DNA of 64,000 bases from Streptomyces sp. SPB162 (GCF_029504575.1 NZ_JAQFII010000001.1:5649001-5713000), one strand, 5' to 3'. Shown: positions 3,857-48,914, counted from the first letter of the stretch. Notes: generated by a model from the letters alone, not told the origin. Translations and numbers: made by a program.

Positions 3857-3858
3857 CC

Positions 3859-16207: not shown

Positions 16208-16248
16208 CTCCCGCGCGGTGGTGGCTCCAGTGGCCGGCGGCCGACCCC

Positions 16249-16932: not shown

Positions 16933-17081
16933 GACACCCCCAACGGATCACAGTCGCCGATGGTTACGCCCCTGCCTGACCGGGGTGTGTCAAGTGAATC
17001 GTGTACAGCCGCAGAGGAGTTCATTCGAAGGGGTGGCGAATGGTGGCGTTTCCGCCGTGGCACTCGCCCGATGGGTGATCG

Positions 17082-17087
17082 TAGGAT
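17082..17087 (+). promoter_or_regulatory. candidate -10 box for nsdA
   Basis: TAGGAT matches the Streptomyces housekeeping -10 consensus. The best -35, TGGCAC at 17058-17063 with an 18-base spacer, is weak. It is 125 bases upstream of the nsdA start. Confidence 0.3.
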
Positions 17088-17211
17088 TACTTTCAGTTCG
17101 TGAGCGCCAGACATGCGTCCCCACCGGGTATGCCGGAGGCAAGGCGGCAGGGTTTGGGCTCAGCGGGCCTCGGCCGTAAGGGCGTTGGGCGACTCGGATG
17201 GGGGCCAACCG

Positions 17212-18672
17212 GTGGGCGGCACACAGGACAAGCAGCCCAACGCGCAGCTGAACTCGTGGTTCGTGCGCAGTGGCTGGTCGAAGGGTGAGTTGGCCCGGCA
17301 GGTCAACCGCAGGGCGCGGCAGATGGGCGCACACCACATCAGCACCGACACCTCCCGGGTGCGGCGCTGGCTCGACGGCGAGCAGCCGCGCGAGCCGATT
17401 CCGCGCATCATGTCCGAGCTGTTCTCCGAGCGGTTCGGCTGCGTGGTCCCGGTCGAGGACCTGGGACTGCGGTCGGCGCACCAGTCACCGTCGGAATCGG
17501 GCGTGGACCTGCCCTGGGCCGGCCCCCAGACGGTCCAGCTGATCAACGAGTTCTCCCGCAGCGACCTGATGCTCGGCCGCCGCGGCTTCCTCGGGGCCTC
17601 GTTGGCCCTCTCCGCGGGCCCGGCTCTCGTCGAGCCGATGCAGCGCTGGCTGGTGCCGCCCTCGCTCGGCGGCTTCCCGCCGCCGGTCACCGGCGCGCCC
17701 CGGGACACCGGCAACCGGCCGAACCGGCTGTCCGAGCCCGAACTGCAGCTGCTGGAGACCACCACGGTGATGTTCCGCACCTGGGACAGCCAGTGCGGTG
17801 GCGGGCTGCGCCGCAAGGCGGTCGTCGGCCAGCTACACGAGGTGACCGACCTGCTGCAGGAGTCGCACCCGGAAGCGGTCGCCACGCGGCTCTACCGCGT
17901 CACCGGGGACCTCGCGGCGCTGGCCGGCTGGATGAGCTACGACGTCGGGCTGCAGCCCACCGCGCAGAAGTACTTCGTGCTCGCCCTGCACGCCGCCAAG
18001 GAGGCAGCCGACCGTCCGCTGGGCGCGTTCATCCTCTCCAGCATGAGCCGCCAGATGATCCACCTGAACCGTCCGGACGACGCGCTGGAACTCATCCACC
18101 TCGCCCAGTACGGCAGCCGGGACACGGCCACCGCCACCACCCAGGCGATGCTGCACGCCGTCGAGGCCCGCGCCTACGCCAGCATGGGCCAGGTCAGCAA
18201 GTGCCACCGGGCCGTGCGGATGGCCGAGGACTCGTTCACCGACGCCCGCGCGGACGATGACCCGGACTGGATCAGCTTCTTCAACGAGGCCGAGCTGAAC
18301 GCGGAGAACGCCCACTCCTACCGCGACCTCGCCTACGTCGCCGGCCGCAGCTCCACCTACGCCTCGCTCGCCCACCCCGTGATGGAGCGGGCGGTCGAGC
18401 TCTTCGGCCAGGACCCCGTCCACCAGCGGGCGTACGCCCTCAACCTCATCGGCATGGCCACCGTCCACCTCCTCGAGCGGAACCCGGAGCAGGCCGCCGA
18501 CATGACGCACAAGGCCATCTCCGTGGCCAGAAAAGTACGCTCGGAACGGGTGAACACCCGGATCCGCAAGACCGCCGGCACCGCGATGCGCGACTTCGGA
18601 GACATCGCCGAGGTCATCGACCTCTCCGAGCGGCTGGCGGTCGAGCTCCCGGAAGTGGCCGAAACCGCATAG
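17212..18672 (+). CDS. nsdA: NsdA, negative regulator of differentiation
   Basis: NsdA represses sporulation and antibiotic synthesis in S. coelicolor. The 486-aa protein carries the family start region NSWFVRSGWSKGELARQVNR, then HHISTDTSRVRRWLDGEQPR, which resembles an HTH. The helical C-terminal half has TPR-like repeats (for example MLHAVEARAYASMGQVSKCH). GTG 17212 is chosen because GATGGGGG lies upstream and the protein then starts close to the known form. A hydrophobic stretch near 120-140 (GFLGASLALSAGPALVEP) looks like a twin-arginine-type segment but is internal. Confidence 0.9.
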   Translation: MGGTQDKQPNAQLNSWFVRSGWSKGELARQVNRRARQMGAHHISTDTSRVRRWLDGEQPREPIPRIMSELFSERFGCVVPVEDLGLRSAHQSPSESGVDLPWAGPQTVQLINEFSRSDLMLGRRGFLGASLALSAGPALVEPMQRWLVPPSLGGFPPPVTGAPRDTGNRPNRLSEPELQLLETTTVMFRTWDSQCGGGLRRKAVVGQLHEVTDLLQESHPEAVATRLYRVTGDLAALAGWMSYDVGLQPTAQKYFVLALHAAKEAADRPLGAFILSSMSRQMIHLNRPDDALELIHLAQYGSRDTATATTQAMLHAVEARAYASMGQVSKCHRAVRMAEDSFTDARADDDPDWISFFNEAELNAENAHSYRDLAYVAGRSSTYASLAHPVMERAVELFGQDPVHQRAYALNLIGMATVHLLERNPEQAADMTHKAISVARKVRSERVNTRIRKTAGTAMRDFGDIAEVIDLSERLAVELPEVAETA

Positions 18673-18812
18673 TCGGCGGCCCCCTCAGACCCCGGCCGCG
18701 GCAGTCCACCCGATCAGCTCGACTCGGCTCCCCCACGCCAGGTCAACCGGGTGGCTCCGCGGCCGGTCCCGTATACGGCGCCCGCGCCTGCCGGTGAGCG
18801 GTTCATCTTCAC

Positions 18813-18848
18813 GTAACACATGGGACTTCTTCGTCACCGCGTCGAAAC
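18813..18848 (+). promoter_or_regulatory. candidate GlnR box upstream of amtB
   Basis: GTCAC (18833-18837), six bases, then GAAAC (18844-18848) matches one half of the GlnR site pattern GTnAC-n6-GAAAC. A preceding GTAAC (18813-18817) plus six bases and a poor GACTT form a possible second half, but the two a-boxes are 20 rather than 22 bases apart. GlnR controls amtB-glnK-glnD in Streptomyces, so the site is expected here. Confidence 0.5.
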
Positions 18849-18950
18849 ACCCTGCGGCATCGGGCGAAACCCGACTGGGACAACCTCTGGGCGATAACCG
18901 GCCCACCCAGCACGGTCCCGCAGGGCCGCTCGGATGACGAGGAGACGCCG

Positions 18951-20638
<1,688 letters not shown>

Positions 20639-20696
20639 ACCCGGCCCCGCCCAGGCGGACCGGATCTTGCGACAAGCGCCCAGCGCTGGAGCACAC

Positions 20697-23178
20697 GTGA
20701 CGGAAAACGTCGAAGCGACAGCTCACGACGGAACCGAAGCCGGCACCCCCGAGGGTCCCGGCGGCTACGCGGCGGCCCGGCTGCGCCTCCTCAACGAGGA
20801 GACGCGGTCCGGGCCGCCGCGCCGTTCCGCCCTGTCGAAACTCACCGACGACTGGCTGGCGGGGCTCGCCGCGGGCGCGGCGGGGGAGACCGGCACCGCC
20901 GGATACGCCCTGGTCGCCGTCGGCGGCTACGGGCGCGGCGAACTGTCTCCACGCAGCGACCTCGACCTGCTGCTCCTCTACGACCCCTCCGTCGCCAAGG
21001 AGCGGGTCTCCGCGCTCGCCGACCGGATCTGGTACCCGGTCTGGGACCTGGGGCTGGATCTGGACCACTCGGTCCGCACCACCGCCGAGGCCCGTGCGAC
21101 GGCCGCCGAGGACCTCAAGGTCCAGCTCGGGCTGCTCGACGCCCGGCACATCGCGGGCGACCCGTCCCTCACCGCCGCCCTGCGCACGGCCACCCTGGCC
21201 GACTGGCGCAACCAGGCCCCCAAGCGGCTGCCCGCCCTGCACGAGCTGTGCCAGGAACGGGCGGAGCGCCAGGGGGAGCTCTCCTACCTCCTGGAACCCG
21301 ACCTCAAGGAGGCTAGGGGCGGGCTGCGCGACGCCACCGCGCTGCGCGCCGTCGCCGCGTCCTGGCTCGCCGACGCCCCCCGCGAAGGCCTGGAGGACGC
21401 CCGCACCCGGCTGCTGAACGCCCGCGACGCCCTGCACCTGGTCACCGGCCGCTCCACCGACCGGCTCGCCCTCCAGGAACAGGACCAGGTCGCCGAAGCC
21501 CTCGGCCTACTCGACGCCGACGCCCTGCTGCGCCAGGTCTACGAGGCCGCCCGGACCATCAGCTACGCGGCCGACGTCACCTGGCGCGAGGTCGGCCGCG
21601 TGCTGCGCTCCCGCGAGGCGCGCCCGCGCCGCCGCGGTCTCCTCGGCATCGGCCGATCCGGCCCCGCCGCCGCTCCCGCCGAGCGCACCCCGCTCGCCGA
21701 GGGAGTCGTCGAGCAGGAGGGCGAGGCCGTCCTGGCGCTGGCCGCGAAGCCCGAACGCGACCCCGTACTGCCGCTGCGCGCCGCCGCCGCGGCCGCGCAG
21801 GCCGGGCTGCCGCTGAGCCTGCACGCGGTGCGCCGGCTGGCCGCCGCCGCCCGGCCCCTGCCGGTGCCGTGGCCGGCCGAGGCCCGCGAACAACTGCTCA
21901 CGCTGCTCGGCGCGGGCGAGGCCACCGTCCAGGTCTGGGAGGCGCTGGAGGCCGAAGGGCTCATCACGCGGCTGCTGCCGGACTGGGAACGGGTCCGCTG
22001 CCGTCCGCAGCGCAACGCCGTCCACCGCTGGACGGTCGACCGGCACCTCGTCGAGACGGCGGTGCGCGCCTCCGGTCTCACCCGCCGCGTCGGCCGCCCC
22101 GACCTGCTGCTGATGGCTGCCCTCCTGCACGACATCGGCAAGGGCTGGCCGGGCGACCACAGCGAGGCCGGCGAGGTCATCGCGCGCGATGTCGCCGTCC
22201 GCCTCGGGTTCGACCCCGCCGACGTGGACACGCTGGCGCTGCTCGTCCGCCACCACCTGCTGCTCATCGAGACCGCGACCCGCCGCGACCTCGACGACCC
22301 GGTGACCGTGAAGGGCGTCGCCGACGTGGTGCGCGACAGCGGCACGCTGGAGCTGTTGCACGCGCTGACCGAGGCCGACGCGCTCGCCACCGGCCCCGCC
22401 GCGTGGAGCAACTGGCGCGCCTCGCTCCTGGCCGACCTGGTCAAACGCGTCGCGGAACTGCTCGCGGGCGGCGAGGTGCCGGAGCAGGGCCGCCGCCGAG
22501 ACGACGGCCGAGGAGGAACGCCTCGCCGTCGAGGCCGCCCGCACCGGCGGCCCGGTGCTCGCCCTCCATGCCCACGCGGAACCAGACCCCGAGGGTGGCG
22601 ATGACAGCACCCCCGAGCGGCTGGGCGTCGAGCTGCTGCTCGCCGTCCCGGATCTGCCCGGGCTGCTCGCCCAGGCCGCCGGCGTGCTCGCCCTGCACCG
22701 GCTCACCGTGCGCGCCGCCGACCTGCGGTCCGTCGACCCGATCGGGGAGGGGCCGGTGACGCTGCTCAACTGGCGGGTCTCGGCCGAGTACGGGGCGCTG
22801 CCGGAGGCCACCCGGCTCCGCGCCGACCTGGGGCGGGCCTTCGACGGCTCGCTCGACATCGAGGCCCGGCTCGCCGAACGCGAGGCGGCCTACCCGCGCC
22901 GCCGCGCGCTCGCCGCGCCGCCGCCCCGGGTGACGGTCGCCGCGGGCAGCTCCCAGGTGGCCACGGTCATCGAGGTCCGCGCCCAGGACGCCCCCGGGCT
23001 GCTGCACCGGATCGGCTACGCCCTGGCCGCGACGGGGGTGGACGTGCGGTCCGCCCACATCAGCACGCTCGGCGCCAACGCGGTCGACGCGTTCTACGTC
23101 GTCGGCGCGGACGGCGCTCCGCTGGGCGAAGTACGGGCGGCGGAGGTCGCCCGCGAGGTGGAGCGGGCGCTGCGCTGA
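20697..23178 (+). pseudogene. glnD: [protein-PII] nucleotidyltransferase GlnD, frameshifted in this sequence
   Basis: GlnD senses glutamine and modifies GlnK. From GTG 20697 the frame encodes the nucleotidyltransferase domain (GGYGRGELSPRSDLDLLL, about 75-92) and the HD domain (LLHDIGKGWPGDHSEAGE, about 476-493). At GGG 22487-22489 it shifts into an arginine-rich tail that stops at 22604. The +1 frame continues as AAAETTAEEERLAVEAARTG into two ACT domains and stops at 23178. Removing one G joins the halves into about 826 aa, the normal length. As given, the ACT glutamine sensors are lost. Whether this is a real mutation or a sequence error is unresolved. Confidence 0.85.
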
Positions 23179-23194
23179 GCCGTACGGTCGTCCG

Positions 23195-23228
23195 TCGCCG
23201 GGCAGGCTCAATCCCGCCTGCCCGGCGA
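23195..23228 (+). terminator. 13-bp stem-loop between glnD and ffh
   Basis: CGCCGGGCAGGC (23196-23207) pairs perfectly with GCCTGCCCGGCG (23216-23227), plus one outer T-A pair, around an 8-base loop. It likely ends the amtB-glnK-glnD transcript. Confidence 0.75.
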
Positions 23229-23299
23229 TGGAGGGCACACCAGCGGATACCCTGGGGGACGACTACCGCCAACCCCTGACGCGAGGACCCGCAACCACC

Positions 23300-24841
23300 G
23301 TGTTCGATACCCTCTCCGATCGCCTTGCAGCGACGTTCAAGAACCTCCGGGGCAAGGGCCGCCTCTCCGAGGCGGACATCGACGCCACCGCGCGCGAGAT
23401 CCGTATCGCCCTGCTGGAAGCGGACGTCGCGCTCCCGGTGGTCCGTGCGTTCATCAAGCAGGTCAAGGAGCGGGCTTCCGGCCTTGAGGTCTCGCAGGCG
23501 CTGAACCCGGCGCAGCAGGTCATCAAGATCGTCAACGAGGAGCTCGTCGGCATCCTCGGCGGCGAGACCCGCAGGGTCCGCTTCGCCAAGCAGCCGCCGA
23601 CCGTGATCATGCTCGCGGGTCTGCAGGGTGCCGGTAAGACCACCCTCGCCGGAAAGCTCGGCCTCTGGCTCAAGAGCCAGGGCCACGCCCCGCTGCTCGT
23701 CGCCTGCGACCTCCAGCGTCCGAACGCCGTGACCCAGCTCTCCGTCGTCGCGGAGCGCGCGGGCGTCGCGGTCTTCGCGCCCGAGGCGGGCAACGGCGTC
23801 GGCGACCCGGTCAAGGTCGCCCAGGACTCCATCGAGTTCGCGAAGTCCAAGCAGTACGACGTGGTCATCGTCGACACCGCCGGCCGGCTGGGTGTCGACG
23901 AGGAGCTGATGCGGCAGGCCGCCGACATCCGTGACGCGGTCAGCCCGGACGAGATCCTCTTCGTCGTCGACGCGATGATCGGCCAGGACGCGGTCAACAC
24001 CGCCGAGGCGTTCCGCGACGGCGTCGGCTTCGACGGTGTGGTGCTCTCCAAGCTCGACGGTGACGCCCGCGGTGGCGCCGCGCTCTCCATCGCGCACGTG
24101 ACCGGCAAGCAGATCATGTTCGCCTCCAACGGCGAGAAGCTCGACGAGTTCGACACCTTCCACCCGGACCGGATGGCGTCCCGCATCCTCGGCATGGGCG
24201 ACATGCTCAGCCTGATCGAGAAGGCCGAACAGACCTTCTCCCAGGCCGAGGCCCAGAAGATGGCCGAGAAACTGGCCAAGGGTCCGAAGGAGTTCACGCT
24301 CGACGACTTCCTGTCCCAGATGGAGCAGGTCCGCAAGATGGGCTCCATCTCCAAGCTGCTCGGCATGCTGCCGGGCATGGGGCAGATCAAGGACCAGATC
24401 GCCAATCTGGACGAGCGCGACGTGGACCGCACCGCCGCCATCATCAAGTCGATGACCCCGGCCGAGCGCCAGGACCCGACGATCCTCAACGGGTCGCGCC
24501 GGGCCCGCGTCGCCAAGGGTTCCGGCACCGAGGTCAGCGCCGTCAAGAACCTGGTCGAGCGCTTCTTCGAGGCCCGCAAGATGATGTCGCGGATGGCCCA
24601 GGGCGGCGGCATGCCCGGTATGCCGGGGATGCCCGGCATGGGTGGCAGCGGCAAGAAGAAGAAGCAGGTCAAGCAAGCCAAGGGCAAGCAGCGCAGCGGC
24701 AACCCGATGAAGCGCAAGGCGGAGGAGGCGGCCGAGGCCGCCCGCCGTGCCGAGCAGGCCGACAACCCCTTCGGCGCGGCCGCCGCTCCTGAGGCGCAGA
24801 ACTTCGAACTCCCCGACGAGTTCAAGAAGTTCATGGGCTGA
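23300..24841 (+). CDS. ffh: signal recognition particle protein Ffh
   Basis: Ffh binds 4.5S RNA and hydrophobic signal sequences and delivers ribosomes to FtsY. The 513-aa product starts at GTG 23300 (MFDTLSDRLAATFKNLRGKG). Its G domain shows GLQGAGKTT (about 106-114), DTAGRLGVDEEL and SKLDGDARGG, and the M domain has the Met-rich helices EFTLDDFLSQMEQVRKMGSI and KMMSRMAQGGG. The C-terminus carries a GMPGMPGMPGM repeat and a Lys-rich tail typical of Streptomyces. An upstream in-frame ATG at 23228 would add 24 unlikely residues. Confidence 0.96.
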   Translation: MFDTLSDRLAATFKNLRGKGRLSEADIDATAREIRIALLEADVALPVVRAFIKQVKERASGLEVSQALNPAQQVIKIVNEELVGILGGETRRVRFAKQPPTVIMLAGLQGAGKTTLAGKLGLWLKSQGHAPLLVACDLQRPNAVTQLSVVAERAGVAVFAPEAGNGVGDPVKVAQDSIEFAKSKQYDVVIVDTAGRLGVDEELMRQAADIRDAVSPDEILFVVDAMIGQDAVNTAEAFRDGVGFDGVVLSKLDGDARGGAALSIAHVTGKQIMFASNGEKLDEFDTFHPDRMASRILGMGDMLSLIEKAEQTFSQAEAQKMAEKLAKGPKEFTLDDFLSQMEQVRKMGSISKLLGMLPGMGQIKDQIANLDERDVDRTAAIIKSMTPAERQDPTILNGSRRARVAKGSGTEVSAVKNLVERFFEARKMMSRMAQGGGMPGMPGMPGMGGSGKKKKQVKQAKGKQRSGNPMKRKAEEAAEAARRAEQADNPFGAAAAPEAQNFELPDEFKKFMG

Positions 24842-24860
24842 CGCCTCTCACACCAACGGT

Positions 24861-24892
24861 CGGAGAACGCCCCCAGCCGGGGGCGTTCTCCG
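24861..24892 (+). terminator. 14-bp terminator hairpin after ffh
   Basis: CGGAGAACGCCCCC (24861-24874) pairs perfectly with GGGGGCGTTCTCCG (24879-24892) around a 4-base loop, immediately after the ffh stop. Confidence 0.85.
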
Positions 24893-24918
24893 CGTCCGGG
24901 GCATGATGGGATGGCGCC

Positions 24919-25434
24919 ATGCGCGTATCCATCCGAGAACCCCGTCCGGGCGACGCCGACGCGTACGCCACGGCCGTCCTGCGGTCCGCCGACCACCTGA
25001 GCCCGTGGAACCCGGTCGATCCGGACGGCTTCCACGAACTGCTGCGCCGCCAGGGCCCGTCGTTGCGCACCTTCCTGATCCTCAACGACGAGGACGGCGG
25101 CATCGTCGGCAAGGTCAACGTCGCGAACATCGTCCGGGCCCGGTTCCGCAACGGCGTTCTCGGCTACGACAGCTACCTGCCGTACGCGGGCACCGGCCGG
25201 ATGACCGAGGGCCTGCGGCAGGTCGTAGACCGCTGCTTCACCAGCTATCCCGACGGTCTCGGGCTGCACCGGCTGGAGATCAACGTGCAGCCGGACAACG
25301 GCCGCTCCCTCGCCATGGCCAAGCGGCTCGGCTTCCGCCACGAGGGCTTCTCGCCGCGCATGCTCTACCTGAACGACGACTGGCGCGACCACGAGCGCTT
25401 CGCCCTCACCGCCGAGGAGTGGCCCGGAGCCTGA
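24919..25434 (+). CDS. GNAT-family N-acetyltransferase (RimJ/RimL type)
   Basis: The 171-aa protein fits the acetyl-CoA-dependent GNAT fold of the RimJ/RimL group. It begins VSIREPRPGDADAYA and has VGKVNVANIVRARFRNGVLG, the acetyl-CoA loop region AGTGRMTEGLRQVVDRCF, and LHRLEINVQPDNGRSLAMA followed by KRLGFRHEG. Such enzymes acetylate N-termini of ribosomal proteins or small amines; the substrate is unknown. There is no clear ribosome binding site. A TGGGAT box 6 bases upstream hints at a leaderless message. Confidence 0.9.
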   Translation: MRVSIREPRPGDADAYATAVLRSADHLSPWNPVDPDGFHELLRRQGPSLRTFLILNDEDGGIVGKVNVANIVRARFRNGVLGYDSYLPYAGTGRMTEGLRQVVDRCFTSYPDGLGLHRLEINVQPDNGRSLAMAKRLGFRHEGFSPRMLYLNDDWRDHERFALTAEEWPGA

Positions 25435-38311: not shown

Positions 38312-38671
38312 GTGAACGCACGAGCAGCCCGGGGCAGGTATGGCGAGGAGCTGGCGGTCCGCTGGCTCACCACGGCGGGCCTGAGGGTTCTGGAACGGAA
38401 CTGGCGGTGCCGCCGCGGCGAGGTGGACATCGTCGCGTCGGAGGGCGACGCGCTGGTGATGTGCGAGGTGAAGACCCGCACCGGGGGTGACTACGAGCAC
38501 CCCATGGCGGCCGTCACCCCGCGCAAGGCGGAACGGCTGCGGCTGCTCGCGGAGTACTGGCTCAGCGAGCACGGCGACCCGCCCTCGGGCGGGGTGCGGA
38601 TCGACCTCGTGGGCGTGGTTCTGCCCGGCCGCGGAGCGGCCCGGGTCGAGCATGTGCGGGGGGTGGCCTGA
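38312..38671 (+). CDS. yraN: UPF0102/YraN family protein
   Basis: A 119-aa protein with an endonuclease-like fold: [20 protein letters not shown], then [20 protein letters not shown] and [20 protein letters not shown] (ExK core). Cellular role unproven. GTG 38312 is preferred because GGAGG lies 8 bases upstream; the earlier GTG 38294 is inside a hairpin. The stop overlaps the comM ATG as TGATG. Confidence 0.9.
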
Positions 38672-39780
38672 TGGGCTTCGCCCGTACCTGCTCGGTGGCC
38701 CTGGTCGGTGTGGAGGGCGTGGTCGTCGAGGTTCAGGCCGACCTCGAGCCGGGGCTCGCCGCGTTCACCCTCGTCGGACTGCCCGACAAGAGCCTGAGCG
38801 AGAGCCGCGACCGCGTCCGGGCGGCGATCGTGAACAGCGGCGAGACATGGCCGCAGAAGAAACTCACGGTGGGCCTCAGTCCCGCCTCGGTCCCCAAGAG
38901 CGGCAGCGGCTTCGACCTCGGAGTCGCGTGCGCGGTCCTGGCCGCCAACGAACGGATCGCGCCCCTGACCATCGCCGACCTGGTGATGATCGGCGAGCTG
39001 GGTCTCGACGGCCGGGTGCGGCCGGTCCGCGGTGTGCTGCCCGCCGTCCTCGCCGCCGCCGACGCCGGATACCGGCAGGTGGTCGTTCCCGAACGCACCG
39101 CGGCCGAGGCCTCGCTCGTCCCGGGAGTCTCGGTGCTCGGCATCCGCACCCTGCGCCAGCTCATCGCGATCCTCAACGACGAGGCGGTCCCGGAGGAGAC
39201 GGCGGACCGGGACGAGGGGCGCCCCGACCCCCTCCTTGCCGGGCTCGCGGTGCCCGGCGCCGGCATCGGCACCGGAGTCTCCGACCGGCAGGTGCTCCCC
39301 GACCTGTCCGACGTCGCGGGCCAGCACACCGCCCGGCGCGCCCTGGAGATCTCCGCGGCCGGCGGCCATCACCTGTACCTGAAGGGCCCGCCGGGTGCGG
39401 GCAAAACCATGCTGGCCGAGCGGCTGGCTGGCCTTCTGCCGCGGCTCACCGCCCAGGAGTCGCTGGAGGTGACGGCGGTGCACTCGGTGGCCGGGATCCT
39501 CCCTCCGGGCAAACCGCTGGTCGACACCCCGCCGTACTGCGCCCCGCACCACTCGGCGACCATGCCCTCCATCATCGGCGGCGGCAGCGGTCTGCCCCGG
39601 CCGGGCGCGGTCTCCCTGGCTCACCGCGGGGTGCTCTTCCTGGACGAGGCGCCGGAGTTCAGCGGCCGGGTGCTCGACGCGATGCGCCAGCCGCTGGAGT
39701 CGGGGCATGTCGTGGTGGCCCGTTCCGCGGGAGTGATGCGGCTGCCCGCGCGCTTCCTGCTCGTCCTCGGTTGTGCATAG
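38671..39780 (+). pseudogene. comM: ComM/YifB AAA+ ATPase, N-terminal fragment (interrupted by element)
   Basis: The first 366 codons encode the Lon-protease-like N-terminal domain and most of the Mg-chelatase-like ATPase. Walker A is GPPGAGKTMLAERL and Walker B is GVLFLDEAPEF. The native frame runs to 39768, ending LLVL; the element then adds GCA and a stop at 39778. The missing part is at 47173-47688. ComM is a helicase that promotes recombination of incoming DNA in transformable bacteria. The split falls just before the conserved ANPCPCG motif and likely inactivates the protein. Confidence 0.92.
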
Positions 39781-39796
39781 GCGGTCACTGACCGGT
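39769..39796 (+). other. left end of the island with subterminal palindrome
   Basis: GGTTGTG (39769-39775) is the terminal inverted repeat. CGGTCACTGACCG (39782-39794) is a perfect 13-base palindrome, probably a recombinase arm or core-binding site. It lies between the end of comM and the first recombinase ATG. Confidence 0.6.
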
Positions 39797-39809
39797 GTAG
39801 CTTCCGCCG

Positions 39810-41318
39810 ATGCGGATCGAATCGACGTGGACAGTGCACTTCGCCAGCCGGGACTTACCCGAGCTTGAGGACGTGCCTCCCTACCTGTACGAAGCCCGGG
39901 AGGGGTGCGTTTCGTGGCTGGATGAGGCAGGGGTTCCCGACGGGCTGCCGTACCTGCTCTCACCGCGTTTCGAGTACGACGTGGTGCTCAACTCGTACTT
40001 CTTTCAGGCGAATCTGCTGACCGCCCCGTGGAACAGCAACGCGAACCGAGCGCGAGCGCTGGCCCGCTTCTGCGGCTTTTTGCACGTCGCGCGCGGAGGG
40101 AAGTCGTGGCGGCAGGCCACGGAGGCTGATCACATCGCATTCCACCAGTGGCGGCGGCGCGACGAGGCCGGGCCACGGGTCGAGGGCGATACCTGGAACC
40201 AGGAAGTCGCCCTCGTTAACCAGTTCTTCGAGTGGGCGGTCCGCAAGGGACATGTGACGGAAAACCCTATTCCACAGCGTCTGGCCAAGCCCGGTCCGCC
40301 GGGCACGGTGCTGGGCCCTCGCGCGTCGGCGACGGTGCCTGCCACCTATGCGCACGACGAGAACGGCGAGCGCATTGAGTGGATGCCGCCGCGGACCTAC
40401 CGGCTCTGGCGGGACGTCGGACTCCGTGGCTATGGTCCGGACGGACTGCCGTCCGGTCACTTCCGGGGCCGGTGGGCCTCTCGCAACACGGCCTTCTCCG
40501 ACCTGATGGTGCGCACGGGAGAGCGCCTGACCGAACAGTCATGCCTCTCCGTCTTCGAGGTTCCCTCCCGCACCGATGTGACTGGCTACCAGCGCTTTTG
40601 GCTGCCGGGAGCCATCGCGAAGAACTTCTCTGCGCGCTGGGTTTACGTCCCGCACAGCATGGTGCTGGACATCGCCGACTACGTGCAGTGGGACCGGGCG
40701 GACGCCGTGGAGCGGGCCCAGGCGGCGGGCCGCTACCAGCGCATCCGCCGTCCCTTGGTGATCAGCGACCCGGACCGGCCGGAGGTCGTCCACGCGCTGT
40801 CTGCCAGCGGGATCACACGGATGCGGCTGAGCGACCTGACCCCGGCCGAGCGCTACCGGCTGCTGCGGGAGACGGACAAAGGACTGGAGCCGGCGATGCT
40901 CTGGCTGACCGAGGACGGCATGCCGATGTCGGTCTCGGGCTGGAAGGCCATGTTCACCACGGCCAACGAACGCTGCCGCGCGGCCGGTCTTGACCTCGCG
41001 GCCCACGCCCACCTATTGCGTCACACGTTCGCGGTCGTCACCCTCGAACAACTTCAGCGCGCCCACATCGCCCAGCTCGGCGCGATGAATCAGTACCAGC
41101 GCGGCCACTACGTGAGGATCTTCGGGGACCCGTTGGACTGGGTCCGCCGCAGACTCGGACACCGGTCGATCCTCACCACTTTGATCTATCTGCACGCCTT
41201 GCAGGAGTTGGAGATGGAGACTCGCATGGCGTTGGTCCCCGACGTCTGGGAGGACCCGCGCGACACCCCGCTGGCCCAGCTCGGGGACGACGCCCTCGCC
41301 CCGGGAGTCGAGGAATGA
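39810..41318 (+). CDS. tyrosine recombinase 1 of the trio
   Basis: A 502-aa site-specific integrase with an N-terminal SAM-like DNA-binding domain (about 70-150; RARALARFCGFLHVARGGKS) and a C-terminal catalytic domain. Active-site residues visible are R239 (TGERLTEQ), H401-x-x-R404 (HLLRHTFAVV), H451 (RRRLGHRSILTT) and the nucleophile Y460 (LIYLHAL). All are present, so it looks active. Its stop overlaps the next ATG as ATGA (41315-41318), implying coupled translation. Tn554 TnpA is the likely counterpart. Confidence 0.88.
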   Translation: MRIESTWTVHFASRDLPELEDVPPYLYEAREGCVSWLDEAGVPDGLPYLLSPRFEYDVVLNSYFFQANLLTAPWNSNANRARALARFCGFLHVARGGKSWRQATEADHIAFHQWRRRDEAGPRVEGDTWNQEVALVNQFFEWAVRKGHVTENPIPQRLAKPGPPGTVLGPRASATVPATYAHDENGERIEWMPPRTYRLWRDVGLRGYGPDGLPSGHFRGRWASRNTAFSDLMVRTGERLTEQSCLSVFEVPSRTDVTGYQRFWLPGAIAKNFSARWVYVPHSMVLDIADYVQWDRADAVERAQAAGRYQRIRRPLVISDPDRPEVVHALSASGITRMRLSDLTPAERYRLLRETDKGLEPAMLWLTEDGMPMSVSGWKAMFTTANERCRAAGLDLAAHAHLLRHTFAVVTLEQLQRAHIAQLGAMNQYQRGHYVRIFGDPLDWVRRRLGHRSILTTLIYLHALQELEMETRMALVPDVWEDPRDTPLAQLGDDALAPGVEE

Positions 41319-43228
41319 GGCGCGCGGGACGCGGAAGTACGGGACCTGGCCGGCGGGCCGCCCTGCCCCAGGGGGACTACGCCGTCCCGGCCACCCCGGC
41401 GGGGAATCCGGACCTGGTTGTCGACTTCCACGGCGACGACGGCCGGAAGGGCCGGTTCGACTGCGGCACCCGGCCGTTGCCCGACTGGCGCCCCGCGCTG
41501 GCCGCGGCCTTCGCCCAGCGGACCGGTCCCGACGGCGGTCGACGCACGCTGTCTTCGGCCACCAGCGCCTGGCAGAGCCTGGGCCGACTGATGCGCTTCC
41601 TGGCGAAGCTACCCGTCCCGCCGGCGAGGCCGCAGGACCTGACCAGCAAGCACCTGGAAGCCTTCCTTGACGCTCGCGCCGAGTCTGCACCGACGACCGT
41701 CACGACCGACCTCCGCGAGATCCACTCGCTGTTCGTCCTTCCCGGGATCGCCCCTCTGATCAGCCCGGACGCCACGGACTGCCTGAAGCGACGCCTGCCG
41801 GACACGAGGATCAAGAAGAAGGCCCGCCAAGCGACGTCCGAGAAGCGGCCAAAGACCGACACGGTGGGCTACTCCGACGGTGAACTGGCCCGGCTCATGG
41901 CCGCTCTGCGAGCGGACTGCGCACGCATCCGCAATCGCATCGCCGCTGGTGAGGAGCTGTTGCGGCGCTTTCAGGAGGAACCGCAGACGCTCAGCGAAGA
42001 GCAACGGGCAGAGGGCCAGCAGCTGGCGCACATGGCTGCCACCGGCGAGGTCCCCTCGTTCCCCGGGCCGGTCCATGAAGCGCTGCCCGAACGCCTGGCC
42101 TGGGCGGGTCGGCTGTTTCTGACGCTGGATGACTTGGTGCCTCTCCTGCTGCTGATGGCTGCCCTGGCCGAGCGCAACGGCGAGACCGTCAAGGAGCTTC
42201 CGGCCCGGCACCGCGTCTTGGAGGGGAAGGCGGTGGAGGTCCGGGTGGTCAAGCGGCGCCGTGGTCCGAAGCGGTGGTTCGAGACGGTCACCTGGGAGAT
42301 CGGTCCGGCGAATCGGCAGCTGCACACCGCCGGGGGCTTCTACCTGCTGCTGCTTCAACTCGCTGCCCGCAGCAGGCAGTTCTGCGAGTCGGATCTCGCG
42401 GTCTGCGTCTGGCGCCACGGCACGAGAGCCGGAGTTCAGGGCCGGGAGGAACATTGCGCCCCGTTCGCGCGGTCGCTGCAAGGAGTAACCCTGCTGATGC
42501 CGCGCTGGGCCGCTGACAGACCACGTCCGCTGCTGGCCGACCCCGGGCCCGGCGGCGAACGGGTTCCGCTCCAGGTGACCTTCAACCGGCTCAAGACCAG
42601 CATGGAAGTGCGGCGGACCAAGCGGATGGGCGGCCATCTGCCGTCAGCAGCGAAGAGCAACACCATGGCGGTCCTGTTCCGCCACTACCTCAGCGGTGAT
42701 CCCGTGATCACCGAATGGGCTGAGGAAGTCCTCGGCGAGGCACTGGTCGATGCCGAACAGGCCGCTCTGCACGCCCACCAGCAGGCCCTCAAGATCGCCG
42801 GGAACACGTTGAAAGTCGTCTCGGGTCCGGTCAGCCCGGAGAGCCTGACGGCTGCGGGTCTGGATCCGGAGACCGCCGAACAAGCAGCGGCCGGCCAGCT
42901 GGACACCGGTTGGACGGCCTGCACGGACCATGATCACCACCCGGTCACTGAGGCCCCTTGCCAGGTCACCTTCCTGGACTGCTTCCACTGCGGCAACTGC
43001 TTGATCACCCGCGACCACCTGCCTCACCTGCTCGGTCTGCTGGACGCCCTCGTGGCTCGCCGCAGGCATCTGTCAGTCGACGACTGGTGGAAACGCTACG
43101 GGCCCGCCTGGGCGGCGATCCGCCGCGACATCCTCGCCAAATTCACCCCGGCCGAGGTGAAGAAGGCGGCGGCAGCCAAGGCCACCGACGACCTGCTGGA
43201 CCTGACCGAGAACCCGTGGGAGCTGTGA
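41315..43228 (+). CDS. tyrosine recombinase-like protein 2 of the trio
   Basis: A 637-aa recombinase relative. An N-terminal SAM-like region (about 80-160; SAWQSLGRLMRFLAKLPVPP) precedes a catalytic-like domain with R287 (ALAERNGETVKEL) and a late SNTMAVLFRHYLSGD segment (R456-H457-Y458). The C-terminal third has a possible metal site (CQVTFLDCFHCGNC) and conserved DHLPHLLGLL. The compact RHY box differs from standard recombinases, so catalytic competence is uncertain. It overlaps recombinase 1 by 4 bases and recombinase 3 by 1 base. Confidence 0.8.
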   Translation: MRRAGRGSTGPGRRAALPQGDYAVPATPAGNPDLVVDFHGDDGRKGRFDCGTRPLPDWRPALAAAFAQRTGPDGGRRTLSSATSAWQSLGRLMRFLAKLPVPPARPQDLTSKHLEAFLDARAESAPTTVTTDLREIHSLFVLPGIAPLISPDATDCLKRRLPDTRIKKKARQATSEKRPKTDTVGYSDGELARLMAALRADCARIRNRIAAGEELLRRFQEEPQTLSEEQRAEGQQLAHMAATGEVPSFPGPVHEALPERLAWAGRLFLTLDDLVPLLLLMAALAERNGETVKELPARHRVLEGKAVEVRVVKRRRGPKRWFETVTWEIGPANRQLHTAGGFYLLLLQLAARSRQFCESDLAVCVWRHGTRAGVQGREEHCAPFARSLQGVTLLMPRWAADRPRPLLADPGPGGERVPLQVTFNRLKTSMEVRRTKRMGGHLPSAAKSNTMAVLFRHYLSGDPVITEWAEEVLGEALVDAEQAALHAHQQALKIAGNTLKVVSGPVSPESLTAAGLDPETAEQAAAGQLDTGWTACTDHDHHPVTEAPCQVTFLDCFHCGNCLITRDHLPHLLGLLDALVARRRHLSVDDWWKRYGPAWAAIRRDILAKFTPAEVKKAAAAKATDDLLDLTENPWEL

Positions 43229-45321
43229 TGTCCTTGCTGACCTTCGCCGGCGCCGAGCCGGACCGGACCTCGTTGGACGCCAACCCGTTCGTCCTGCACG
43301 CACGGCAGTTGCGTCCCGAATTCCGGCTTGAGGACACCGCACGCTTCGACGCCGACGTCTGGCCGCTGACGCCGGTGCTGCTGAAGAACCAGAGCCGGCA
43401 GATGAGCCTGAGATTCGTACGCATCCCTGCCCGCTTCCGGGTCGTGATCAAGGAAATCTGCTACGGCATGTTGTCCGGCCCGCTGCCGCCGGGCGAAGAC
43501 TGGCCGGCGCCCGAGAGCGTCTACGCGTGGTTCGGGGAGATCATCCGTTTCCTGGACTGGATGGAGGCCCGTCCCACGGTCCTTCGCGACCTGACCGGAG
43601 ACGACCTGCTGGACTACCAGCGGTTTCTGACCACCGTCCTGAAGAAGGAGGGCGGCCGGACGCGGGCGCGGGCAGCGGTCCGCCAGTTCTGGCGGTGGCG
43701 GACCGTGCTCACGGCCGACCGTCTCCGCTTTGACCCGCGGCACGTCGACGGCTGGGGCGAGTCCAAGTCCCGGTCGAGGGCGGGGGAGAACTCCACCTCC
43801 CGGATTCCCGAACAGGTCCTCGGTCCGCTGTTCGCCTGGGCCCTGCGGTTCATCGACGAGTTCTCGCCGGACATCCTGACCGCCGTCGATGCCTGGCGCC
43901 AACGCCGCGGGGATAGGTCAGGCCCAGGCTTCCACCAGAGCAGAAACCTGCGGCAGGCCCTTGGCGCACTGCTGGACGAACACGTTGCCGCCGGCCGAGC
44001 GCTGCCCGGACTGGACGGCAAACTGAACAAGCTGCACCTCGCACGGACCCTTGGATGTTCACGGGCCTCACTGGACCACCACCGTGACTTGATCGACGAG
44101 GCAGTCGCGGCCGTCGGCATCTCCGCGACCACGTTCTTCGCGATCCCCATCACCCTGGATGCGGACGGCAGGCCATGGGTCGAGGGCATCGCCACCCACC
44201 ACACCCACCGCAACAGCCTTGCCGCACTGGCACGGCACCTGCATATCGCCTGCTACATCGTCATCGCCTACCTCTCCGGCATGCGCGACAGCGAGATCAA
44301 GCACCTCCGCCGAGGCTGCCTCACCATCGAGCGCGACGAAGATCAGATCCCTTACCGCTGGAAGATCAACAGCCTCGCCTTCAAAGGCGAGGACGACGCC
44401 GCAGGAGTCCCGGCGACCTGGAGCGTCGGCGAACCCGTTGCCCGAGCCGTCACCGCTCTGGAACGGCTGCACCGCCCGGACGTCCACGTCCTGATGTCCT
44501 GCACGGACTTCAGTCCCGGCAGCCTTGACCGCAAGGCCACCGAGCGAGCCCTGACCAACTCCTCCACCAACACCCAGCTCAACGAATTCGTGGCCTGGGT
44601 GAACGACTACTGCTCGCAGCACGAGCGAGCCGACGCCGTCCCTCAGGTCAACCGGCGAACCTTCCGACTCGTGACCTCGCAGTTCAGGCGAACGCTGGCC
44701 TGGTTCATCGCCCGCCGCCCAGGCGGCACGATCGCCGGCGCCCTTGCCTACCGCCACCACAGCGTTCAAGTCTTCGAAGGCTATGCAGGAACCAGCGAGG
44801 CCGGATTCCGGGCGGAGGTCGAAAGCGAACAAGCCCTCGCCCGAGGCGAGCACCTCATGGCCATGATCGACGCTCACGAGCACACCGCGCTGAGCGGACC
44901 GGCCGCAGAAGAGGCCGCCGAGCGGCTGGAAGCGTTCGGCCACCGGGCTCGCTTCCAGGGGCAGGTCGCCCTCGACGAGCGCCGACTCCAGCGGATCATG
45001 GAGCGGCACGAGCCCGCGATCTATCCCGGGAAGTACGTCACCTGCGTCCACGACCACACCAAGGCCCTCTGCGAAAAGGCTCGCCGAGGCCGGTCAGAAG
45101 GCCTTCCTGACCACGGCGCATGCCGCCCACTCTCCTGCCGCAACGTCGCCCTCACGCCCGCGAACATCGCCGCCTGGCAGAAGGAGATCCACCGCATCGA
45201 ACGCCGCCTCAAGACCCGGCGCATCATGCCGCCCCTCCTGCGACACCGGCTCATCGAACGACGGGACGAGATCGTCGCCTTCCTCGCCCGCAACACCCCG
45301 CACCTGGAGGCGACCGCATGA
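43228..45321 (+). CDS. tyrosine recombinase 3 of the trio
   Basis: A 697-aa recombinase starting at ATG 43228 (MSLLTFAGAEPDRTSLDANP), with GTG 43225 as an alternative. It has an N-terminal DNA-binding domain (about 90-160) and a catalytic domain with R353 (SGMRDSEIKHLR), Q485-x-R487 (SQFRRTLAWF; Gln at the usual His), H510/H511 (YRHHSVQVF) and Y519 (GYAG). The C-terminus has several cysteines (CVHDHTKALC, CRPLSC) resembling Tn554 TnpB-type tails. Its stop overlaps the DUF6262 ATG as ATGA. Confidence 0.85.
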   Translation: MSLLTFAGAEPDRTSLDANPFVLHARQLRPEFRLEDTARFDADVWPLTPVLLKNQSRQMSLRFVRIPARFRVVIKEICYGMLSGPLPPGEDWPAPESVYAWFGEIIRFLDWMEARPTVLRDLTGDDLLDYQRFLTTVLKKEGGRTRARAAVRQFWRWRTVLTADRLRFDPRHVDGWGESKSRSRAGENSTSRIPEQVLGPLFAWALRFIDEFSPDILTAVDAWRQRRGDRSGPGFHQSRNLRQALGALLDEHVAAGRALPGLDGKLNKLHLARTLGCSRASLDHHRDLIDEAVAAVGISATTFFAIPITLDADGRPWVEGIATHHTHRNSLAALARHLHIACYIVIAYLSGMRDSEIKHLRRGCLTIERDEDQIPYRWKINSLAFKGEDDAAGVPATWSVGEPVARAVTALERLHRPDVHVLMSCTDFSPGSLDRKATERALTNSSTNTQLNEFVAWVNDYCSQHERADAVPQVNRRTFRLVTSQFRRTLAWFIARRPGGTIAGALAYRHHSVQVFEGYAGTSEAGFRAEVESEQALARGEHLMAMIDAHEHTALSGPAAEEAAERLEAFGHRARFQGQVALDERRLQRIMERHEPAIYPGKYVTCVHDHTKALCEKARRGRSEGLPDHGACRPLSCRNVALTPANIAAWQKEIHRIERRLKTRRIMPPLLRHRLIERRDEIVAFLARNTPHLEATA

Positions 45322-45728
45322 CCCGCCAACTCGCAGTCCCCTCAGAACTCAGGGTCCGCGCCGTCCTCGAAGAGCTCCGACGACAGGCAGCCGACGAAGG
45401 CAAGGCCCCCAGCGTCCTCGCCCTGGCCAGGAAGCTCGGCTTGAGCAACACGACGTTCCGCCGCCACTTCCCCCACATCGCTCGCGAGGTCACCGAGAGC
45501 CGATCCTCGTCAGGCGGCTCCTCCGGCGAGGAGCGTCAAAGCCGGCTCGACATGGTCGTCGCGAGAAACGCCAAGCTCAAGATCGCCAATCGAACCCTCA
45601 AAGGACATCTGAAGCTTGCTGCGGCCCAGATCCAACGCCTCGCTTCTGAGAACGCACAGCTACGGCAAGCACTGGAAGCGTCCGCCAAGGTCACCCACAT
45701 CGGCCCAGCTCGGCAACCACGACCCTGA
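45318..45728 (+). CDS. DUF6262/TnpC-like accessory protein
   Basis: The 136-aa protein has an HTH-like N-terminal half (SVLALARKLGLSNTTFRRHF) and a C-terminal coiled coil (NRTLKGHLKLAAAQIQRLAS). This plan matches DUF6262 proteins, which accompany recombinase trios, and the small TnpC of Tn554 that influences transposition orientation and efficiency. It is translationally coupled to recombinase 3 by a 4-base overlap. No catalytic motif is seen. Confidence 0.82.
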   Translation: MTRQLAVPSELRVRAVLEELRRQAADEGKAPSVLALARKLGLSNTTFRRHFPHIAREVTESRSSSGGSSGEERQSRLDMVVARNAKLKIANRTLKGHLKLAAAQIQRLASENAQLRQALEASAKVTHIGPARQPRP

Positions 45729-45790
45729 AAGGTCAACGTTTGAAACTATGAGCACCAAATGATCTCGCAGCACACCGATCGGAGAGGCGC

Positions 45791-47116
45791 ATGGGGGACA
45801 CCTGGGGCCTGATGCTGGGCGACAGACAGATCAGGATGGGGAAGAACGAGACGCCTGCCAAGCTGATGACGGTCTTCCGTGAGGAAGACAAGTACCTGCA
45901 CCTCGAATGGGCTCAGCGCGTCGACGAGGTCAACGCGCGTGATGAGACAGCGTGGGGCGAGCTCGACGATTTCGAGGGCTTCGACCATCGCGAGCTCTTC
46001 GGTTACCGGACCACAGTCCAGACGATCATGGCCCGTCTCAAGCTGATGGGCTTCGATCCCGATCGATGCAGCCAAGAGATGATCAAGGATCTCGAAGGCG
46101 TCAACGAGGATGACATCGAGGACGGTCTCCTTGTGCTCAGGGGTCGTCCCACACGCGAGCGCAAGGAGGAGATCTGTCATCGGGTCTCTGCCGCCGAGGT
46201 CCTGGACACGGGGATCGCGGCCTATCACAAGCGAGCGGAGGCCTTCGGGAACTGGAAAGTGGGGGACGGTCTCATAAAGCTGGCCGAGCTGGATGAAATT
46301 TGCGTTTCGCAGCTGGACTTCTTCTTTGATGACCTTGCAGTCGATCCGAGGCTTTTCCTTGCTCTGATCCTTCGCTCTCAGGATCCTAAAGAGGTACTAC
46401 AGCTCGACCTGAGCCAGCTCCTCATGGCTGGCTACTTTGAGAGCAGCGAGGCGGTCTCGACCGAGGCCCTCCAGCAGCTGCGAGATGAGACGGCGAGCAG
46501 TGGACCCATCATCGTCATCACCGAGGGGAAGTACGACTCCCGTGTCCTGGGCCGGGCGCTACCTATCGTCAGGCCCGACATCGCTGGCTACTTCGCCTTC
46601 TGGGACCTTGAGGAGACCAAGGCAGCCGGCGGGACGGACCGGGTGGTCGCCAACCTCAGGAGCTTCGCAGCCGCAGGTGTGATGAACCGTGTCATCGCCC
46701 TCGTCGATAACGATGCGGCTGGACTGGCTGCACTGAAGACCTTGGCCAACCCGGCACTTCCCAAGAACTACATCGCTCGCAATCTGCCCGATCTGGACTA
46801 CGCGCGCGCTTATCCAACCCACGGGCCTTCGGGCCCAGGCCAGGACGACGTCAACGGCCGAGCATGCTCCGTCGAGTTCTACTTCGGCCTGGAGTGCCTC
46901 ATCGGCCCTGACGGAAATCCCGTCCCCATCCAGTGGACATCGCTGAACAAATCGGTGAACACATGGCAGGGAGAGCTGCAGAACAAGCGCTACGTCGAAG
47001 AGAGGATCGATGCCCTGCTTGACGCTGCGGAAGCTGGACAGGTGCCACTGGACGAGCGCTGGGATCCCCTTCGGGAGATCGCGCAGATCCTCATCGATGC
47101 TGCCCAGAGCCGGTAG
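45791..47116 (+). CDS. HEPN/Toprim N-terminal-domain protein, putative defence nuclease
   Basis: The 441-aa cargo protein starts MGDTWGLMLGDRQIRMGKNE and continues LMTVFREEDKYL, matching the HEPN/Toprim-associated N-terminal domain. The C-terminal half is Toprim-like: E245 in VITEGKYDSRVL and D306-x-D308 in ALVDNDAAGLAAL. Toprim nucleases occur in OLD-type and other anti-phage systems, so a defence or abortive-infection role is a fair inference, not shown. GGAGAGGCGC precedes ATG 45791. The gene is less GC-biased than its neighbours, which suggests transfer. Confidence 0.8.
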   Translation: MGDTWGLMLGDRQIRMGKNETPAKLMTVFREEDKYLHLEWAQRVDEVNARDETAWGELDDFEGFDHRELFGYRTTVQTIMARLKLMGFDPDRCSQEMIKDLEGVNEDDIEDGLLVLRGRPTRERKEEICHRVSAAEVLDTGIAAYHKRAEAFGNWKVGDGLIKLAELDEICVSQLDFFFDDLAVDPRLFLALILRSQDPKEVLQLDLSQLLMAGYFESSEAVSTEALQQLRDETASSGPIIVITEGKYDSRVLGRALPIVRPDIAGYFAFWDLEETKAAGGTDRVVANLRSFAAAGVMNRVIALVDNDAAGLAALKTLANPALPKNYIARNLPDLDYARAYPTHGPSGPGQDDVNGRACSVEFYFGLECLIGPDGNPVPIQWTSLNKSVNTWQGELQNKRYVEERIDALLDAAEAGQVPLDERWDPLREIAQILIDAAQSR

Positions 47117-47135
47117 TCGCATCCGGCACTGTCAG

Positions 47136-47170
47136 CGGTCAACGGTCAGCTCCAAACCATAGCCACAACC
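47136..47170 (+). other. right end of the island with direct CGGTCA repeats
   Basis: Two direct CGGTCA copies (47136-47141, 47143-47148) lie inside the right terminal repeat CACAACC (47164-47170). The same hexamer forms the left palindrome, so these are likely recombinase-binding sites arranged differently at the two ends. Confidence 0.55.
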
Positions 47171-47172
47171 TC

Positions 47173-47688
47173 GCGGCGAACCCCTGTCCGTGCGGTCGGC
47201 ATTCGCTGCTGGGGCTGGGGTGCGACTGCTCGCCGGCCGCGGTCCGCCGGTACCAGGCGAGGCTGTCCGGGCCGCTCCTGGATCGGGTGGATCTCCGGGT
47301 CCAGGTCGAGGCGGTGACCCGTACCGAACTGATCGAGGGAGCCGCGGGCTCCGAGCCGACGGCGCGGGTCGCGGACCGGGTGCGGCTGGCGAGGGAACGG
47401 GCGACGGCGCGGTACGCGGAGACTCCGTGGCGGACCAACAGCGAGGTGCCCGGCCATGAGCTGCGCACGCGCTGGCAGGTGGGCCCGGCCGGGTTGCGGG
47501 AGGCCGAGAGGGACATGGAGCGCGGCCTGCTCACCGCCCGGGGGCTGGACCGCGTCCTGAGGGTGGCCTGGACGATCGCGGACCTCGCGGGCGCCGAGCG
47601 GCCCGGCCCGCCGGAGATGGCCGAGGCCCTGCAACTGCGGACCGGCATCTCCCGCGGTGTGCCGGCCGTCGCGGGAGGTGGTGGCTGA
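47173..47688 (+). pseudogene. comM: ComM/YifB C-terminal fragment
   Basis: This frame continues comM exactly where the N-terminal fragment stops: AANPCPCGRHSLLGLGCDCS, then RRYQARLSGPLLDRVDLRVQ and the C-terminal Mg-chelatase-related domain to the stop at 47688. It has no start codon of its own with a good ribosome binding site. The stop overlaps the dprA ATG (TGATG), so dprA was coupled to comM before the insertion. Confidence 0.92.
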
Positions 47689-48914
47689 TGGCGGTCTACG
47701 ACGTCGGTGCTGTTGGCGACGGGTGTGACGGGTACGACATCGGTGCCGCGGTTCCTGGTGGCGAAGTCCGTGGCGTCGGTGACGAGGAGCGGCTGTCGCG
47801 AGCCGCGCTGACCCGGATCGCCGACCCGGGCGACGAGACCATGGGCGCGTGGCTGCGGGACCGCGACCCGCGGGAGGTGGTGACGGACGTCCTGGCCGGG
47901 GTACCGCTGCCGGGAGCGAGCGAGCAGCGGATGGCCGGGTACCGGATCCGGGCCGGAGCGCTGGACCCGGCGGCCGACCTGGCCGCGATCGACGCACTCG
48001 GCGGGCGCTTCGTGTGTCCGGGCGACGCTGACTGGCCGGCGCAGCTGGACGATCTCGGCGTCGGACGGCCCTACGGCTTGTGGGTGCGGGGGAGACCGAA
48101 GCTGCGGATGTGGGCCCTGCGGTCGGTCGCGGTGGTGGGCGCCAGGGCCTGTACGGACTACGGCGCCCATATGGCGGCCAGACTGGGCGCGGGGCTGGCC
48201 GAGGCGGGCTGGGTGGTGGTGTCCGGCGCCGCGTACGGGGTGGACGGGGCGGCCCACAGGGGCGCGCTGTCGGCGACCGGAGGGACTATCGCGGTGCTCG
48301 CCTGCGGCGCGGATGTGCCCTATCCGCCGGGGCACGCCGCCCTGATCTCCCGGATCGCGGAACAGGGCCTGATCGTTGGGGAGTTGCCACCGGGCTCCCA
48401 CCCGACCCGCAGCAGGTTCGTGCTCCGCAACCGCGTCATCGCCGCCCTCACACGCGGCACGGTGGTGGTCGAGGCACAGCACCGCAGCGGCTCGCTGATC
48501 ACCGCGCGGTACGCCCGTGAGCTGGGACGGCTGACGATGGGCGTGCCGGGCCCGTGCACCTCGGGCCTTTCGGCGGGCGTGCACGAACTGCTGCGCAACG
48601 AGGCGGCGCTGGTGACCGACGCGGCGGAGGTCGTCGAGATGGTCGGCCGGATCGGCGGTGACCTGGCGCCCGAGCGGATTGGTCCGGTGCTGGCAAGGGA
48701 CCTGCTGGAGGCCGATGCCACGCGGGTGCTGGAGGCGCTGCCCGCCCGGGGTGGCGCCGGCGTTGAGCAGATCGCCCGCACCTCGGGCACCCGAAAGGAC
48801 GACACGCTCGGACGCCTCTACGAGTTGCAGGCGCTGGGCTTTGTGGAACGGGACGGAGAACGATGGAAGTTGACGCGTTTCCCCCGGAACCGGCCGGTTC
48901 CCCGGGCCGGGTGA
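47688..48914 (+). CDS. dprA: DNA processing protein DprA/Smf
   Basis: DprA loads RecA onto single-stranded DNA during natural transformation. The 408-aa protein has the Rossmann core: SVAVVGARACTDYGAHMA, VSGAAYGVDGAAHRGALSA, GGTIAVLACGADVPYPPGH, and the FVLRNRVIAALTRGTVVVEA segment typical of the family (RNRxIA). A C-terminal winged-helix-like domain follows. The start ATG overlaps the comM stop. After the comM insertion its expression must rely on read-through or an island promoter. Confidence 0.95.
   Translation: MAVYDVGAVGDGCDGYDIGAAVPGGEVRGVGDEERLSRAALTRIADPGDETMGAWLRDRDPREVVTDVLAGVPLPGASEQRMAGYRIRAGALDPAADLAAIDALGGRFVCPGDADWPAQLDDLGVGRPYGLWVRGRPKLRMWALRSVAVVGARACTDYGAHMAARLGAGLAEAGWVVVSGAAYGVDGAAHRGALSATGGTIAVLACGADVPYPPGHAALISRIAEQGLIVGELPPGSHPTRSRFVLRNRVIAALTRGTVVVEAQHRSGSLITARYARELGRLTMGVPGPCTSGLSAGVHELLRNEAALVTDAAEVVEMVGRIGGDLAPERIGPVLARDLLEADATRVLEALPARGGAGVEQIARTSGTRKDDTLGRLYELQALGFVERDGERWKLTRFPRNRPVPRAG

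Follow-up and report, generated by a model that had tools for sequence, protein, structure and literature searches.

A probable actinobacterial transposon of the GInt/SE kind inserted in comM of Streptomyces sp. SPB162

What has split comM in Streptomyces sp. SPB162, and what does it carry? The window analysed here, a stretch of 64,000 nucleotides (GCF_029504575.1, NZ_JAQFII010000001.1:5649001-5713000), holds an interrupted comM whose two parts enclose three genes of tyrosine-recombinase type (A, B and C), a small helper gene (D) and one further gene (E). The interval is very probably an entire transposon, site-specific and run by tyrosine recombinases, of the kind represented by GInts and strand-biased circularizing integrative elements (SEs), belonging to an actinobacterial branch of that kind. 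We hold this because its ends are exact and flanked by 6-bp spacers, because joining the flanks restores ComM, and because a near-copy and five more elements occupy the same comM position. The order of A, B and C at related loci, the common ends of 14 elements, their variable or absent cargo, and profile matches to gene blocks on plasmids argue in the same direction.

Structure of the element and its insertion in comM

The features of the locus are listed below in window coordinates; genomes and loci are designated throughout by G and L numbers.

38671..39764, plus strand: comM, 5' part, interrupted (translation of the open reading frame (ORF); joins in frame with the 3' part)
39765..39770: left 6-bp spacer CCTCGG, its register set by four elements with identical spacers on both sides; one base off the empty-site consensus
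39771..39793: left end, a TTGTG arm with the palindrome GGTCACTGACC (39783-39793); architecture shared with related elements at this end
39810..41318, plus strand: gene A, active-looking tyrosine recombinase, 502 amino acids (aa), GinA/IntA-like (Pfam integrase and SAM-like domains; invariant catalytic residues)
41315..43228, plus strand: gene B, degenerate tyrosine recombinase, 637 aa, with a Tfp/GinC-like role (replaced catalytic positions; weak structural-model match to XerH and Cre)
43228..45321, plus strand: gene C, large active-looking tyrosine recombinase, 697 aa, IntB-like (R353, K386, R487, H510 and Y519 invariant)
45318..45728, plus strand: gene D, small helper, 136 aa, DUF6262/TnpC/GinD/Srap-like (weak DUF6262 match; 3' of C in related elements)
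45791..47116, plus strand: gene E, cargo, putative HEPN/Toprim-associated nuclease, 441 aa (invariant Toprim residues; weak domain and fold matches)
47137..47168: right end, GGTCAACGGTCAGC ... AACCATAGCCACAA, motif and spacing matching the right ends of related elements
47169..47174: right 6-bp spacer CCTCGC, identical to a common empty-site sequence
47175..47689, plus strand: comM, 3' part, resuming ...ANPCPCG (joined ORF of 537 aa)

The mobile element runs from 39771 to 47168 (7,398 bp) between the spacers CCTCGG on the left and CCTCGC on the right, and its left end consists of TTGTGCATAGG followed by the palindrome GGTCACTGACC. An earlier note on this DNA had treated the interval as one unit bounded by 39769-47172; the unit is borne out and its bounds are refined. 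The overlaps of 4, 1 and 4 bases between recombinase and TnpC-like genes, also described there, are exact: A, B, C and D overlap successively by these lengths. Gene E lies 3' of A-D, and all five genes stand inside comM.

Is comM truly split? When the flanks are joined (38671-39764 with 47169 onward), they give a ComM of 537 aa; over 536 residues it aligns without gaps, at 95.9% identity, with the intact ComM of the nearest congener. We found no second ComM match in the host genome (two contigs, 7.2 Mb). Since the join restores a gap-free protein and the host has no other match, the insertion in comM that the earlier note had read from the sequence stands. Among intact comM genes of related species, the empty site reads [GC]CT[GC]GC in 38 of 41. 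No RNA family or tRNA gene was found in the region. The element is a unit with defined ends, precisely inserted in its target.

Related elements and their distribution

We delimited 14 related elements at both ends, ranging from 6.0 to 14.3 kb. Their ends typically read TTRTG...GGWCAnTGWCC on the left and GGWCAACGGWCA...CAYAA on the right, though not without variation. One set of elements has the half-site GGTCA and the other GGACA, and both ends switch together. Four of the 14 have identical spacers on both sides (CTTGGG, GCTGCA, CTACAC and CTTCGG), which fixes the crossover at 6 bp. The remaining spacer pairs agree at 5 of 6 bases in three elements and at fewer in seven. Such mismatched spacers are frequent, as they are in GInts and SEs.

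Of the 71 C-bearing loci sampled, a set of fetched loci that includes some near-identical records, 60 show the order A, B, C in profile searches; D is detectable at 41 of them. The earlier note had suggested examining whether the mobility genes co-occur between consistent flanks. The ordered loci and the 14 delimited elements show that they do, and nothing in this comparison contradicts a single unit.

With one genome taken per species, relatives of C were found in 58 of 395 Streptomycetaceae genomes (E<=1e-30, single-protein search) and in 3 of 396 genomes of a phylum-wide sample (E<=1e-40, profile search), so that the branch seems concentrated in Streptomycetaceae. C relatives also occur on plasmids of Streptomyces, Kitasatospora, Prauserella and Rhodococcus. 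A search of phage records found none encoding gene A.

A near-identical element is present in G232, from another genus of the family: its five genes share 91-97% identity with their counterparts in the window, and the comM position is identical. Could the element of the window nevertheless be a relic, formerly mobile and now inert? Its mobility is read from sequence, which leaves room for such a view; however, its genes and ends are intact, A and C keep their catalytic residues, and so similar a copy in another genus makes a relic improbable.

Target sites

Seven elements occupy one comM position (the window, G232, G229, G217, G385, G111 and G356), and in each the left-type end adjoins the comM 5' half. 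In G111 and G356 (L083, L084) the left-type end lies beside D, the operon being flipped between the ends; a search over 20 kb did not find the far end of these two elements, whose boundaries are one-sided. In five comM elements (the window, L074, L077, L079 and L080) the A-side spacer departs from native comM and the cargo-side spacer fits it, while in the flipped elements of G111 and G356 the native spacer is at the left-type end. A subgroup made up of L083 and L084 together with L082 (G323) has a partial second B-like gene 5' of A.

Divergent trio elements adjoin the comM elements of two genomes: one beside comM codon 53 in G232 (L074 1-2027 with L155), the other just past the comM 3' part in G229 (L077 11340-16620). 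The comM region has therefore been hit repeatedly.

From the translations of their flanks and from annotations, other elements are read as sitting in ku, in a TnsB-like transposase, in a HAD-like gene, in an HNH gene and, in three cases, at the KxDG motif of an ATP-dependent DNA ligase. In two elements the cargo includes an intact homologue of the interrupted gene. The first, in G029 (L081, G029:C1:7389500-7409400, reverse strand, about 2680-11607), sits in ku between identical 6-bp spacers; its flanks join into a Ku frame of 299 aa, and its cargo includes an intact Ku (Pfam Ku), 67% identical, in which the attachment-site DNA differs. The second, on a Prauserella marina plasmid (L123, about 11300-25000), lies within the gene of an HNH endonuclease; the first gene of its cargo, beside D, encodes an intact HNH protein. 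In this they resemble Tn552-II, which likewise carries a gene like its target (PMC12486829). No copy of comM is present in those comM elements whose cargo is fully visible.

Two active-looking recombinases and a probable degenerate partner

Gene A retains R235, K271, H401, R404, H451 and Y460 in every homologue aligned. The box-II histidine of gene C is not conserved among its homologues, and in Pfam C has a very weak SAM-like match only. The DUF6262 match of gene D falls under the Pfam cut-off.

Gene B is of another sort. Reading its catalytic positions from the homologue alignment, we find the first arginine replaced by N288, the second by K427 and the box-III histidine by N449, with Tyr458 retained; in the most distant row, that of Agrobacterium, box III has a histidine and box II an arginine. 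A sequence-family match for B was sought and none was found, and profile comparison gave no match to A and matched C in the N-terminal region only. An AlphaFold2 model (mean predicted local distance difference test, pLDDT, of 78), built from an alignment without plasmid-collection sequences, was compared with the PDB: its top matches are all tyrosine recombinases (XerH, Cre), and all are weak (best E 0.13, probability 0.85). B reads as a degenerate recombinase, and the trio as two active-looking enzymes with one degenerate partner. The earlier note had counted three tyrosine recombinases; A and C keep the catalytic residues expected of them, but B reads as degenerate, so that two of the three look competent.

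Relation to known element kinds

GInts, also called the Tn6571 family (PMC5385486, PMC10121019), carry ginABCD, encoding three recombinases, the third of them without catalytic residues, and a TnpC-like protein; all these genes are required for excision and integration (PMC5385486). SEs carry intA-tfp-intB-srap (PMC9345347, PMC10214605), and their second recombinase is degenerate (PMC10214605). An SE has the native 6 bp at its intA end and the donor 6 bp at the other, with a 6-bp spacer and a 6-bp footprint.

Is the element a strict GInt as PMC5385486 defines it, with active GinA and GinB, a degenerate GinC and GinD as helper? The number and kinds of genes agree, three of recombinase type and a small helper forming an operon at one end, as do the variable cargo past the fourth gene, the imperfect spacers and the site specificity. 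However, the degenerate recombinase is third in GInts and second here, and the third recombinase of the branch (C) keeps R, K, R, H and Y, that is, all catalytic residues but the box-II histidine. Actinobacteria are absent from the host list of PMC5385486, and the cargo is smaller here (0-7.5 kb). A strict GInt is thus rather unlikely.

An SE in a host phylum from which none has been reported, moving by strand-biased copy-out, is a possibility that we entertain more readily, though still tentatively. The succession of active, degenerate, large active recombinase and small helper, the overlapping genes, the few fixed targets, the retained split attB, the inverted-repeat arms at the joint and the 6-bp spacer all recall SEs, but the SE papers report Gammaproteobacteria only. 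Moreover, the five comM elements with a non-native A-side spacer and a native cargo-side spacer show the reverse of the SE/Tn554 rule.

The A-D profiles match, in order, a four-gene block on a Klebsiella pneumoniae plasmid, and A-C match one on a Pseudomonas aeruginosa plasmid; the second gene of these blocks also lacks the first arginine, by inspection. They are unverified stand-ins for GInts or SEs.

Three other identities were considered and ruled out. Tn554 (TnpA, TnpB, TnpC; PMC12486829 for Tn552-II) has two active recombinases and a small helper, and likewise carries a short spacer along. The branch, however, has a third, degenerate gene of recombinase type, B, which excludes this identity, and radC is not its target. 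RIT elements (RitA, RitB, RitC) also have three adjacent recombinase genes, but those of the archetype are smaller (315-410 aa), all with the catalytic tyrosine, without a fourth gene and with 34-bp inverted repeats. The presence of D, the loss of most catalytic residues in B and the sizes exclude a RIT; a RIT-like third gene is matched by C only, weakly (E 2e-5). Tsy elements, made of a tyrosine recombinase (YRec), a helix-turn-helix (HTH) protein and TnsF, insert, like Tn6022, in the Walker B region of comM (PMC10293859). They too are comM-inserted tyrosine-recombinase transposons without a classical transposase, but they have two recombinases, one with a zinc-finger N-terminus. No zinc-finger N-terminal region was seen in A, B or C, and this, with the gene set and sizes, rules out a Tsy. 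By codon count, the Tsy/Tn6022 target is about 125 bp upstream of the comM site of the element.

The earlier note had proposed a distinct family with Tn554 and RIT elements as nearest relatives. This does not hold, the gene content being that of GInts (PMC5385486) and the order that of SEs (PMC10214605). The kind is not new: we file the element as an actinobacterial variant of the GInt/SE kind because order and spacer fit SEs and gene content fits GInts. The GInt and SE papers cited here describe neither from Actinobacteria, and the branch is undescribed there.

Several points weigh against a GInt/SE-kind transposon. The assignment rests on published descriptions of gene content and order; the mobility and activity of the element are read from conserved residues; the fold support for B as a recombinase is weak; and the foreign spacer of the five comM elements is on the side opposite to that of SEs.

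How might a transposon of this kind move? Recombinases A and C would act at the two ends, assisted by degenerate B and helper D, and B or D may bind the subterminal GGWCA half-sites. Cuts 6 bp apart would yield a circular form in which CAYAA and TTRTG arms surround a 6-bp spacer, and the circle would be recombined into the fixed comM position, about 125 bp past the Walker B codons, with inactivation of comM. The cargo after D would be exchangeable, and E, a putative Toprim nuclease, could defend its host against phage or make the element more stable.

Gene E and the cargo of related elements

Does the branch move defence genes? E. coli GInts carrying defence systems have been reported (PMC10121019), and the HEPN/Toprim N-terminal domain is tied to defence contexts (PMC3710099). 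In gene E, the Toprim residues TEGxxD and DND are invariant among homologues. Pfam matches to HEPN_Toprim_N and Toprim both fall under the cut-off, and a Foldseek match to the Toprim fold 2fcj is weak (probability 0.91 but E 0.21). The conserved HEPN Rx4-6H motif was not found in the alignment of E, nor did PADLOC return a match for E. Many plasmid relatives of E are named HEPN/Toprim-associated. A defence role for E is plausible. The nuclease cargo of the earlier note thus survives in part: E is a separable cargo gene with invariant Toprim residues, but it remains a putative HEPN/Toprim nuclease.

Alternatively, E could belong to the transposition machinery. It stands with D in three elements or remnants at nearly constant spacing (the window, G232 and G303, where E is found together with D and the end of C). 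Yet E is also found without the trio in G193 (96% identical), G256, G229 and G059, and it occurs alone near a chromosome end and on plasmids; other genes occupy its place in related elements, and some elements are bare, their right end lying 6 nucleotides past D in L073 and 25 in L124. Elements without E contradict a role in transposition, which is hardly credible. We infer that the gene after D is exchangeable cargo.

Among the delimited elements, cargo ranges from none to about 7.5 kb. Its Pfam matches include an S1-domain protein, Ku, SUKH, DUF4262, DUF7919, a sigma-factor-like protein and HNH, and ten other cargo proteins compared with PADLOC gave no match. The earlier claim that the family moves defence genes is therefore not upheld for the branch: cargo is mixed or absent, only E is defence-like, and neither E nor the ten others have a PADLOC match. 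Defence cargo as a rule is not supported, given these null results and the cargo-free elements.

A Tsy-like transposon in C-type recombinase genes

Gene C of G232 is split by a 6.9-kb insert (L074 7504-14362) with genes for a tyrosine recombinase, recognised by Pfam, and for a large protein that has many CxxC motifs and resembles a recombinase at its C-terminus. The large protein has no Pfam match and is TnsF-like by inspection. By this gene content, the insert is a Tsy-like element, combining a YRec with a zinc-finger TnsF-like protein. G232 has three copies (the above, L155 3642-7413 and L242 6172-9943), with large proteins at least 99.8% identical, and G158 has one (L243 7138-10897), 91% identical. 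All four are clean insertions at the GMRxxE codons of C-type genes, three residues past the catalytic arginine. Chance is an unlikely explanation for three hits in different genes of G232 and one in G158, judging from the insertion sites. In G179 (L250) and G269 (L251) it is yraN, beside comM, and not comM that is split, near codon 50, by more distant Tsy-like elements, whose TnsF-like protein is about 42% identical.

Conclusions

On balance, we think that Actinobacteria have a large SE/GInt-type branch of their own, whose elements home into conserved codons of genes that serve recombination and repair (comM, ku, DNA ligase, transposase). An intact homologue of the broken gene, with a changed attachment site, would be carried by some members, and a Tsy-like transposon would prey on the branch through the GMRxxE codons of its large recombinase gene. 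The SE/GInt kind is thereby extended to a phylum without a report in the GInt and SE papers cited here, and several comM-directed types (Tn6022, Tsy and this branch) converge on one gene. With 14 base-exact elements, direct tests become possible for the ends, for the 6-bp spacer and for what the degenerate recombinase does. If true, the rescue of a target gene by cargo and the targeting of one transposon's recombinase by another would be models of damage limitation and mutual parasitism.

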